NCBI RefSeq assembly: GCF_000730165.1
Contig: NZ_CP022110.1
Location: 798,501 to 862,500, forward strand
Origin: Nitrospirillum viridazoti CBAmc
GTDB taxonomy: Bacteria; Pseudomonadota; Alphaproteobacteria; Azospirillales; Azospirillaceae
Length of the DNA stretch: 64,000 bases
Reading direction: 5' to 3'
In this document: piece after piece, positions 7,586 to 56,522 of the stretch
Position numbering within the stretch: position 1 is the stretch's first letter
Layout of the letters: every line of letters begins with the position of its first letter
The notes under the pieces: model-generated
Told to the model about the DNA's origin: nothing
Databases searched by the model: none
The model's input: only the letters and a program-made list of their open reading frames with translations
Translations under genes and position numbers: made by a program

Positions 7586-7675
7586 GCCTGGGAGAGGTCA
7601 CCGGCACCCGCTTTCCCGAGCGAAGCGACAATCCCGGGACGGTGGGCGCCGGAACTTTCTGAAAAGCGAGCGATC

Positions 7676-7712
7676 AGCCAGGGCCCCGGAAGGGGCCGCT
7701 GGCGCTTGAAAG
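7676..7712. repeat. dispersed hairpin element, copy 1
   Basis: Reads AGCCAG, then stem GGCCCC, loop GGAA, stem GGGGCC, G, then CTGGCGCTTGA. It is a divergent copy of the element at 19783, 48188 and 52167. The inner six-base stem differs from the other copies but remains fully paired. It lies between convergent genes and ends nine bases from the TAG stop of the minus-strand FG-GAP gene. Confidence 0.6.
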
Positions 7713-19705: not shown

Positions 19706-19782
19706 CTGCCGAGTTCATATCCGCCCAGCTCTCCTCAGGCCAGTGACCGCTGGCCCTGGAGTGAGCACCGCAGGGCGGAACG

Positions 19783-19825
19783 AGGATAGCCAAGGCCGCG
19801 GATGCGGCCGCCCGGCGCCTGAGGG
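19783..19825. repeat. dispersed hairpin element, copy 2
   Basis: AGGATAGCCAA, stem GGCCGC, loop GGAT, stem GCGGCC, G, CCCGGCGCCTGAGGG. It lies between the HEAT gene and minE. Its CCTGAGG end is seven bases from the minE stop codon, the same relation to a minus-strand stop as copies 1 and 4. Confidence 0.65.
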
Positions 19826-48069: not shown

Positions 48070-48070
48070 C

Positions 48071-48090
48071 GCCCGGCGCTTGAGGGCATC
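48071..48090. repeat. half copy of the dispersed hairpin element
   Basis: The 20 bases GCCCGGCGCTTGAGGGCATC are an exact direct repeat of 48214-48233, the right half of copy 3. They begin one base after the mtnN stop. The two repeats bracket 123 bases. Confidence 0.8.
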
Positions 48091-48187
48091 AAGGCAACTG
48101 CGGCGGCATGAGACTTTTCGCCTGCCGCTGCTAGGATGCGACTGCATCCGCCGGAAGTTTCCGGGGAGCGTAGCGGACTGGAAACTG

Positions 48188-48229
48188 AGGAAGCCAAGCG
48201 GCCGGATGGCCGCGCCCGGCGCTTGAGGG
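48188..48229. repeat. dispersed hairpin element, copy 3
   Basis: AGGAAGCCAA, stem GCGGCC, loop GGAT, stem GGCCGC, G, CCCGGCGCTTGAGGG. The stem is the reverse of copy 2 and still pairs fully. Two more perfect hairpins precede it: GGATGC-GACT-GCATCC (48134-48149) and CCGGAA-GT-TTCCGG (48150-48163). The psuG start lies 21 bases downstream. Confidence 0.65.
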
Positions 48230-48249
48230 CATCGATAAAGGGGGCGGGC

Positions 48250-54986: not shown

Positions 54987-55220
54987 CGCGCACTCCCTTC
55001 CTTCAGAAGCCGATCCTGAAACCGGGCCCATCATAGCCGTGTTCGTGACAGGCACTAGCGTGCCGTCGCGTCCTAAATGGTGCGGGTTGGGGCCGGTTCC
55101 AGCGCACGGCCGATTCGCATGGTGGGCGCAGGGCCGGCAGGGCGGCGGCCCGTCACGGCGACGGCCGCGGCTTCACCCCGCCTGTACTACAGCGGTAGGT
55201 CATTGCTCTGAAGGCGGTGC
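54987..55220. other. intergenic region, no gene seen
   Basis: This 234-base gap lies between aguB and the pentapeptide gene, both on the minus strand, so it must hold the aguB promoter and the 3' end of the pentapeptide gene. No clear terminator or repeat is visible. Confidence 0.4.
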
Positions 55221-56522
55221 TTATTCGTCGTCGTCGTCGATCTGGGCCGGCATGGCGGCGCCATCCAGGATGGCGCCCTCCAACTGGGCGCCGCGCAGGT
55301 TGGCGTCGATCAGGTTGGCGCCGGACAAGTCCGCGCCGCGCAGGTCGGCGCCCGACAGGTTGGCGCTGCGCAGGTTGGCGCGCTGCAGGCTGGCCTTCAG
55401 CAACAGGGCGTCGGCCAGGTTGGCGGGCCACAGCCGGCCGATGGGGCGGCCGTCCGGCCCCTTGATGTCGACGGAGCCGATCTCTGCCCCGTCCAGTTTG
55501 GCGCCCGTCAGGTCGGTGCCGCGCAGGCTGACGCCATCCAGGGTGGCGCCCGTCAGGTCGGCGCCGCGCAGGTCGGCCCCGGCGAGGTCCGACATGATGA
55601 ACATGGAATCGCGCAGCTTGGCGCCCACCATCTTGGCGCCCTTGAGGTCGGCGCCGCTGAGGTTCACGCCCTTCAGGTCGATGTGGCTCAGATCCTCGGC
55701 CGCCAGTTCCGCCCGGATGCCCTTGGCGCCGTTGCTGAGTATCCAGGTGCGGTGGTGGCCCAGCGCCTTCTGGATCTTCTCCGAGAAGTTTTCCGACCCG
55801 CGCGCCAGGTTGGCGCCGGTGGTGTCCACACCCGTCAGGTCGACGCCGTCCAGGTTGGCGCCCGTCAGGTCGGCGTTCATCAGGATAGCGCCGGCCAGGC
55901 TGGCGCCGGTCAGGCGGCAGTCCCGCAGCACAGCGCCCGTCAGGTTGCTGCCCGACAGGTTCACGCCGCGCATATCGCAATTGGTGAAGTTGGCCGACTT
56001 CAGCACCGACTTGGCCAGGTTGCAGCCCGACAGCTGTGCGCCCGAGCAGTCGGCACCCACCATGCTGGTCTCGCTGAGGTCGGCGCCGGCTAGGTTGGCG
56101 CTGGACAGCAGGGCGTCATCCATGTCCGCGCCGCGCAGGTCGGATTGCTGCATGCTGACCTGGCCGGGCCCCCGGCGATCCAGCAGCGCGCCGCCGCGCA
56201 AGTCGGCCTCACGCAGGATGGCGCCCTTCAGGCGGGCGCCGCGCATGTGGGCGCCGCGCAGGTCGGCGCGGTACAGGTTGGCGTTGATCAGGACGGCGCG
56301 GGTCAGCTTGGCGGCGAACAGGTCGGCCATGCTGAGGTTGGCGGTGGTGAAGTCGCAGCCGGTGAGGTTGGCGCCGGACAGCTTGGCCGACTGCAGGTTC
56401 ATGCCGACGAAGCTGGCGCCCTGCAGATCGACCAGGGGCAGCATGGCGCGCGCGCCGCCGGTCTTCCGCTTCAGCCAGCGATCGTGCTTTTCCAGTACGG
56501 CGATCAGTTCGTGCGGTGTCAT
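55221..56522 (-). CDS. pentapeptide-repeat protein
   Basis: A 433-residue protein almost wholly of A(D/N)LxG-type repeats in two blocks (about residues 30-232 and 268-420), split by a 30-residue helical piece (SENFSEKIQKALGHHRTWI) and a Pro/Gly segment (GPDGRPIGRLW). The right-handed beta-helix fold is highly likely. The first 25 residues (MTPHELIAVLEKHDRWLKRK) form an amphipathic helix seen in similar alphaproteobacterial proteins. The role is unknown; some pentapeptide proteins mimic DNA and inhibit gyrase, but this one is larger. ATG 56522 has GGGGC upstream; an earlier frame start at 56642 adds unlikely residues. Confidence 0.85.
   Translation of the reverse strand: MTPHELIAVLEKHDRWLKRKTGGARAMLPLVDLQGASFVGMNLQSAKLSGANLTGCDFTTANLSMADLFAAKLTRAVLINANLYRADLRGAHMRGARLKGAILREADLRGGALLDRRGPGQVSMQQSDLRGADMDDALLSSANLAGADLSETSMVGADCSGAQLSGCNLAKSVLKSANFTNCDMRGVNLSGSNLTGAVLRDCRLTGASLAGAILMNADLTGANLDGVDLTGVDTTGANLARGSENFSEKIQKALGHHRTWILSNGAKGIRAELAAEDLSHIDLKGVNLSGADLKGAKMVGAKLRDSMFIMSDLAGADLRGADLTGATLDGVSLRGTDLTGAKLDGAEIGSVDIKGPDGRPIGRLWPANLADALLLKASLQRANLRSANLSGADLRGADLSGANLIDANLRGAQLEGAILDGAAMPAQIDDDDE

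Follow-up and report, generated by a model that had tools for sequence, protein, structure and literature searches.

Four intergenic sites in a 64,000-nucleotide stretch of the Nitrospirillum viridazoti CBAmc genome (hereafter the window) each carry a short hairpin whose stem differs from site to site, which raises the question of what kind of element these hairpins belong to, and of whether their differing stems are the mark of a selected structure. The four sites are just as a first-pass annotation gave them, with perfect stems that all differ and with GGAT or GGAA loops. The hairpin reported there turned out to be the last (P3) in a chain that comprises an optional hairpin A, then P1, P2, the linker AGCCAAG, P3 and CCGGCGNNTGAGG, giving units of about 75-170 nt with three to five hairpins. 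This longer unit was recognised by reading 30 of the 35 exact copies of CCGGCGCTTGAGG in the genome; with up to one mismatch, CCGGCGCTTGAGG occurs at 178 places in the genome, compared with 100 for the reversed pattern. The span 48071-48233, originally described as a whole, resolves into a 21-base 3'-end relic (48070-48090), hairpin A and one complete core (Table 1).

A covariance model built from 22 copies, with truncated or odd ones left out (R1), recovers all four sites, with the scores and build-set membership given in Table 1, and finds two further, weaker places in the window, at E-values of 0.043 and 0.93. When up to three mismatches are allowed, CCCGGCGCTTGAGG occurs 33 times in the window against 28 expected, which is not above chance; the signal in the window rests on three exact copies of CCCGGCGCTTGAGG together with the full model, and not on the mismatch-tolerant pattern. 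For three of the four copies a facing stop codon is indeed 7-9 nt away, as had been claimed for them, and beyond the fourth a start codon follows. Elsewhere in the window, positions 55220-56417 hold a dense 15-bp periodic repeat over about 1.2 kb, a period that pentapeptide-repeat coding sequences also have.

Table 1 Element copies in the window and the parts of the copy at 48 kb (scores from cmsearch with R1)
Feature	Position	Strand	Basis or remark
Diverged element copy, P3 GGCCCC-GGAA-GGGGCC	7630..7712	+	37.6 bits, not in build set; 9 nt from facing stop codon
Element copy, short P2 form	19737..19825	+	71.6 bits, in build set (row W19783); 3' end 7 nt from facing stop codon
3'-end relic of a former or neighbouring unit, CGCCCGGCGCTTGAGGGCATC	48070..48090	+	Direct repeat of 48213-48233; exact CCCGGCGCTTGAGG at 48072 and 48215; orthologous spacers in full, partial and relic states
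Hairpin A (CGGCATGAG..CGCCTGCCG), 5' module	48100..48131	+	Fold; position corresponds to terminal hairpin of complete elements in other genera
Complete element core	48132..48229	+	103.6 bits, in build set (row L016); start codon 20 nt beyond
P1 hairpin GGATGC-GACT-GCATCC	48134..48149	+	6 of 6 pairs with two-sided changes, own-genome and many-genera sets
P0 closing helix, GCCGG (48150-48154) with CCGGC (48216-48220)	48150..48220	+	Conserved in genus, no covariation
P2 long form, AGTTTCCGG...CTGGAAACT	48156..48186	+	Fold; two-sided changes in 5 of 6 modelled pairs
Linker AGGAAGCCAAG	48188..48198	+	GCCAAG in 57 of 81 own-genome copies
P3 hairpin GCGGCC-GGAT-GGCCGC, the hairpin first reported	48198..48213	+	Two-sided changes in both alignments
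3' end CCGGCGCTTGAGG	48216..48228	+	35 exact copies genome-wide
Element copy with eroded P2	52127..52207	+	35.8 bits, not in build set; 8 nt from facing stop codon; site empty in two congeners

Architecture and pairing of the unit

In the Nitrospirillum form, the optional 5' module is either hairpin A, with ATGAG...CTCAT at its loop, or GGAGCGTAGCGAC, or a pyrimidine tract. TAG often precedes P1, a 6-bp helix with a GACY loop in 64 of 81 own-genome copies, and GCCGG follows it. P2 then occurs in a long (NTTTCYGG...CTGGAAAN) or a short (CGAGCACCGMAGGGCGSAGCG) version, after which come AGGAnAGCCAAG and P3, with 4-6 bp and a loop that is GGAT or GGAC in 71 of 81 copies; the unit ends with (G)CCGGC, the P0 partner of GCCGG, and GCYTGAGG. 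The compact form, which is that of other genera, is without GCCGG, its P2 loops vary (CCAT, TTAT and ACGT are examples), and its P1 loop is GACY in only 40 of the 95 rows from outside the own genome. For 75 of the 95 many-genera rows the contigs had been fetched by a pattern fixing AAGCCAAG, GGAY and CCGGCGNNTGAGG, which makes the constancy of linker and P3 loop there a matter of construction and leaves the stems free; among the 20 rows not fetched by pattern, which were chosen by the compact-form model R2 described below, GCCAAG is present in 19 and GGCGNNTGAGG in 18. Linkers and P3 loops, and usually P1 loops, are largely fixed, and the stems are free provided that they pair.

The pairing itself was evaluated in two alignments. 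Across 81 own-genome copies (80 distinct rows), 94.9% of the cells hold standard pairs, and 14 of 24 pairs show two-sided changes, in 240 cells. No shuffle in 500 had as many two-sided cells, as high a percentage paired or as high a covariation score, and two of 500 reached the number of pairs, while shifting the partner by one to three columns brought the pairing down to 34-49%. The many-genera alignment (95 copies, 94 distinct), for which P3 was defined afresh, also pairs in 94.9% of its cells, with two-sided changes in 17 of 22 pairs and 324 cells (0 of 500 shuffles). Chance palindromes are ruled out by the copy number together with these shuffles. P0 shows no covariation. The additional pairing that the first-pass annotation proposed between AGCC and GGC is possible in the compact form, where 99.6% of the cells are paired, but it hardly varies and has no support from covariation.

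The type of change is odd, in that C-G to G-C flips are many and G-U steps few. Counting G-U against A-C in the own genome gives 7 to 6 in P1, 16 to 4 in the long P2 and 0 to 3 in P3 (0 to 7 when its outermost pair is included); the corresponding counts in the many-genera set are 6 to 7, 11 to 11 and 11 to 3 for P1, P2 and P3. The strand signal in these numbers is weak and mixed.

Copy number, spread and placement beside genes

The four sites, suggested at the outset as the seed of a covariance-model search, have very many relatives, with significant two-sided change: the own genome holds at least 150 copies, all 150 scored candidates matching R1 at E <= 0.1, and 81 copies match R1 at E <= 0.01 in the 1.264 Mb of its largest contig, window included. 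Among the matches listed for this genome, at least 150, copies seem denser on C1, which is the largest contig, than they are on C2-C4. Of 59 related genomes, 15 have R1 matches; they include the seven genomes of the genus, in which every scored candidate matched. The same long-P2 form is present in N. amazonense.

For the wider surveys we used R2, the model of the compact form, in which P3 was displaced by about one column, such that P1, P2 and sequence scored well and the P3 pairing badly; we think that its counts are likelier to be too low than too high. R2 matches were obtained in 63 of 82 genomes of the family (genus included), in 32 of 385 genomes of the class, four of them from the family, and in 9 of 398 genomes of the phylum sample, all nine within the class. 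For several genomes in the R1 and R2 surveys the copy counts are lower bounds, to be read as at least the number given. A DNA pattern was found in at least 117 stretches of GTDB contigs, and the 80 titles listed include Azospirillum, Niveispirillum, Nitrospirillum, Oleisolibacter, Telmatospirillum, Paramagnetospirillum and Roseomonas relatives, as well as Erythrobacter relatives, Sphingomonas, Methylobacterium, Jiella, Pleomorphomonas and others; those among the listed titles that name a group below phylum are, we presume, all alphaproteobacterial. In 15 named genomes with pattern loci, R2 matches at E <= 0.01 range from 2 to 78 (Paramagnetospirillum kuznetsovii 78, Telmatospirillum siberiense 71, Neoroseomonas eburnea 68, Falsiroseomonas bella 59, Niveispirillum irakense 50, Methylobacterium oryzihabitans 47, Sphingomonas sp. 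Root710 23, Erythrobacter dokdonensis 6, Jiella avicenniae 2). A BLAST search of plasmids with a window copy gave just 41-42 base matches, in three records. The pattern is also present in 46 stretches of contigs labelled viral (L422-L467), and one 47.9-kb contig, IMGVR_UViG_2708742415_000004, accounts for 16 listed matches over three of them; such contigs are possibly prophage or misassigned host DNA.

Genes were called by a simple codon-usage script trained on the own genome and applied also to the other genera, with exact stops and rough starts. On these calls, 79 of the 81 own-genome copies lie between genes and two overlap them. The intergenic copies divide into 32 in convergent spacers, 28 with an upstream stop on the 5' side and a start on the 3' side, 18 with a start on the 5' side and a facing stop on the 3' side, and a single one in a divergent spacer, although divergent spacers make up 77.9 of the 179.1 kb of spacers of at least 110 bp. 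The tie of the hairpins to stop codons, first seen in the window, is borne out on this scale: with a facing stop on the 3' side (n = 50), the distance is at most 13 nt in 38 cases, compared with 11.3 expected if the copies were spread evenly over the same spacers (at most 23 in 20,000 draws). Where a start codon lies on the 3' side, it is 6-20 nt downstream in 11 of 29 cases, and the GAGG of the element may thus act as a ribosome-binding site for such genes. Either strand can face a gene, and this gene context rules out that the plus strand is always the transcript.

Placement in other genera is looser, with a facing stop at the 3' side in 36 of 56 classed copies, at a median of 27.5 nt, and 4 of 56 in divergent spacers. 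All six annotated copies on Azospirillum plasmids are intergenic, three of them convergent and none divergent according to a gene table that is incomplete; a seventh plasmid copy comes from Niveispirillum, on a record whose annotation is unusable. Two copies (L118:4040-4144 and L116:14886-14992) are followed on their 3' side by TCTGGTCTCGAATGAGTGCGTTGGCGAGGATAATGAGC, a further stretch common to both, which is probably another repeat or the duplicated end of a gene.

Ends, turnover and candidate explanations

Complete copies were found in three genomes of other genera (G045, G125 and G307), where they measure about 144-169 bp, run from TAC(C/T) to GGTA and have TNA outside both ends. The draft genome G045 holds eleven near-identical copies, each at a site of its own and three truncated by the end of a contig, with a 146-bp unit of the form TAC(C/T)AAG-hairpin A-P1-P2-AAAGCCAAG-P3-CCCGGCGTTTGAGGG-hairpin B-CTGGTA. 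Its termini are inverted repeats of about 17 bases, TACCAAGCCTCGATGAG and, for the right end in reverse complement, TACCAGGTCTCGATGAT, alike at 14 of 17; the terminal inverted repeats in G125 and G307 share fewer bases. By inspection, the terminal ends and hairpin B are not recognisable in most own-genome copies. No autonomous copy or transposase was seen in G045 (77% complete) by its left-end pattern, which returned only short units and a few unpaired ends.

From 79 cores with enough flank, taken from G045, G125, G307, G384 and other genomes of the class, a fixed rule located both ends in 27. The outer triplets are identical in 16 of these, against 6.1 by random pairing; the 11 without matching triplets include some with wrongly assigned ends or missing flank. 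TNA stands on both sides in 17 cores, all from G045, G125 and G307, and the two triplets agree in 16 of the 17 (TTA 9, TAA 5, TGA 2; permutation p = 1e-5). Since an inverted reading fits only 1 of 17, we regard the triplets as a direct target duplication and not as a further part of the inverted repeat. Five of the 16 duplicated triplets serve as the stop of open frames that are 174-378 codons long, counted from the start codon; the remaining 11 consist of one frame of 59 codons at the edge of its stretch and ten short frames. Stop codons abutting the 3' end in the own genome (n = 38) are TAG in 15, TAA in 15 and TGA in 8, to be compared with 148, 288 and 682 among its genes (n = 1118), which is an excess of TAG (Fisher p = 8e-5) and a shortage of TGA; those 11-46 nt before P1 are TGA in 21, TAG in 5 and TAA in 3 of 29. 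Because TAG is not TNA, a simple stop-codon rule fails to carry over to Nitrospirillum. In the other genera, stops at most 20 nt from the 3' end are TGA in 7, TAG in 5 and TAA in 4 of 16, near background.

Orthologous sites reveal turnover of the copies. The mtnN-psuG spacer has a full copy in four of the seven genomes of the genus (G000, G002, G005 and G006), only the 3' part in G003, a relic in G001, and in G004 a relic with another palindromic insert. This insert, inside the element relic (L098), is a different palindrome (TTAGAGCAAGATGCGATCAG plus an inverted copy) and looks like a second MITE family. At the 52127 site, two of four genomes examined carry the element (G000 and G004) and two lack it (G002 and G003). 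Over 400 kb of G002, both flanking genes were located for 37 of 50 copies, two of them at inconsistent places; eight spacers with a length difference comprise missing copies (some in rearranged spacers), two internally deleted copies and one extra copy. Many of 19 clean one-to-one orthologous pairs differ at few bases and some by deletions, and in four (L118:8100, L114:14284, L118:18592 and L121:14747) much of the unit has been swapped for a different, equally well paired member, the flank being nearly identical on at least one side. Tandem arrays exist with a period of 119 in the own genome, 108 in G026 and about 115 in G384, and their otherwise near-identical units show two-arm changes. Given the replacement of units at orthologous sites and the two-arm changes between array units, part of the covariation represents exchange between copies and not mutation in place. 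The original view of covariation as the mark of a selected structure thus holds in that two-sided change is far above shuffles, but not all of it is compensatory mutation in place, since some sites exchanged members; as a general caution, two-sided changes in repeats need not mean such mutation.

We favour, with moderate confidence, the reading that the four sites belong to a family of non-autonomous mobile DNA repeats that extends across the class and has MITE-like ends and a REP-like habit. Complete copies would be inserted by a putative transposase acting in trans, with duplication of a 3-bp TNA target. Because TAA and TGA are TNA, insertion at a stop codon would restore the stop, and insertions there would therefore be tolerated, which could help to explain the pile-up at gene ends. 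The Nitrospirillum copies would be older, mostly without hairpin B and recognisable ends, and would now change chiefly through tandem duplication, internal deletion and exchange between copies. Mobility is supported by the near-identical copies of G045, by the matching TNA triplets, by presence and absence at orthologous sites and by the exchange of members between aligned flanks; against the reading stand the search of G045 that met no transposase or autonomous copy, the 11 of 27 cores without matching triplets, the duplications, of which only 5 in 16 fall at the stop of a long frame, and the abutting stops of Nitrospirillum, TAG-rich and TGA-poor. For a MITE that moves by its ends the interior need not be conserved, and its class-wide conservation here counts against the MITE reading. 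The maintained pairing hints at recognition of, or a need for, the folded strand itself, whether for mobility or because it forms an mRNA 3' end that is harmless or protective. One could also speculate, though we consider it unlikely, that this is a class-wide element read by its fold more than by its sequence, whose TNA target includes stop codons, and which rebuilds the stop and adds a structured 3' end to the mRNA, a transposon with a safe harbour.

A quite different explanation, to which we give a minority chance, is that of a host-useful 3'-UTR RNA element (a 3'-end protector, processing site or attenuator) selected copy by copy, with mobility incidental. The constancy of the P3 loop (71/81) and P1 loop (64/81) in the own genome is in its favour, as are the position of the copies behind genes, their scarcity in divergent spacers, and the excess of G-U over A-C in the long P2 (16 to 4) and the many-genera P3 (11 to 3). 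However, P1 and the compact P2 have no strand bias (6 to 7 and 11 to 11), P3 of the own genome leans the opposite way (0 to 3, and 0 to 7 once its outermost pair is counted), copies at orthologous sites disappear or give way to other members, and either strand faces a gene (32 convergent, 28 plus 18 tandem copies), so that there is no single transcript sense. Rather improbable in our view is that the stems vary through hairpin-specific mutation, by template switching within palindromes, and not through selection or exchange: the many C-G to G-C flips with few G-U intermediates would agree with it, as would array neighbours that are near-identical save for one or a few hairpins with both arms changed, but the four differing orthologous sites resemble exchange with another member, and near-identical orthologous pairs have few stem changes.

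The two remaining candidates involve a dedicated protein. CsrA binds GGA loops, and with GGA in its P3 loop and AGGA in its linker the family could be a decoy or an array of binding sites for a CsrA/Rsm-type protein; CsrA (PF02599) is, however, absent from all seven genomes of the genus (three of 14 controls are positive), which rules against such a sink and leaves it scarcely credible. The protein-binding or RNA-processing role entertained in the first-pass annotation is thereby left unsupported, the strand signal being as weak and mixed as described. A classical REP/REPIN moved by a RAYT (HUH tyrosine) transposase would match the extragenic, high-copy, hairpin-forming copies behind genes, as REPs are portrayed in PMC3733652, but is very unlikely, as Y1_Tnp (PF01797) was detected in 0 of 7 genomes of the genus and in 5 of 14 control genomes, as there is no conserved GTAG/CGTC tag, and as complete copies have a target duplication. 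On present evidence, we thus return to a family that is real and widespread, mobile by its marks in three genomes, and a variant of the MITE and REP kinds, not a categorically new system.

Comparison with known systems

Our best reading is that the family is undescribed, as far as Rfam and the open-licence literature searched extend, in agreement with the early remark that no named element has this form. Rfam gave no match at gathering score or credible E-value for the element in the window or in five loci of other genera; it found tRNAs elsewhere in the window, and one microRNA match scored 27.3 bits where the cut-off is 90. Bacterial chromosomes abound in short palindromic repeats that are poorly explained, and the family supplies copies complete with their ends and target duplications, an association with stop codons and member exchange at orthologous sites, with pairing strongly conserved from Azospirillum to Erythrobacter and Methylobacterium. 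Both mobility and a function at the 3' end become directly testable with it.

Bacterial MITEs such as Correia/NEMIS, ERIC and RUP are short, non-autonomous, high-copy elements with terminal inverted repeats and a target duplication, which is TA. The family shares all these traits, the terminal repeats and the duplication being those of G045, G125 and G307, and differs from MITEs by its class-wide interior chain of hairpins and by duplicating TNA rather than TA. E. coli BIMEs and rhizobial ABC/RIME elements combine several different palindromic modules in each intergenic unit. Set beside these by description, the family is likewise a mosaic of palindromic modules, with the difference that the order of modules is fixed in the copies read out. 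A 3-bp direct repeat at 5'-TNA-3', TGA in the described case, is also made by the IS1031 subgroup of IS5, whose inverted repeat starts GAACCTG according to PMC12016507; the likeness is that duplication alone. The inverted repeat of the family starts TACCA, and its units contain no coding sequence.

The idea of a REP-like palindrome, put forward when the hairpins were first noticed, captures the dispersed, intergenic, REP-like habit but not the unit, of which the hairpin is only one part. According to PMC3733652, REPs of the GTAG and CGTC super-families are high-copy, extragenic and palindromic and sit behind genes, often within 20 bp of ORF ends. These traits recur here, together with rarity in divergent spacers, a further REP trait; the CGTC REPs are stated in that paper to be mainly alphaproteobacterial and to have no dedicated transposase. 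By inspection, the GTAG/CGTC tag is not present in the family: TAG precedes P1 in many own-genome copies and not in the compact form, and the 3' end, taken on the other strand, gives CCTC, which the same source accepts as a CGTC variant, but without the stem starting with AT that is described there. Whereas REPs are described there as single palindromes of 20-40 bp, the family here joins three to five hairpins in about 75-170 nt, is accompanied by no RAYT domain in the genus (0 of 7 genomes), and in its complete copies is bordered by a 3-bp TNA duplication.
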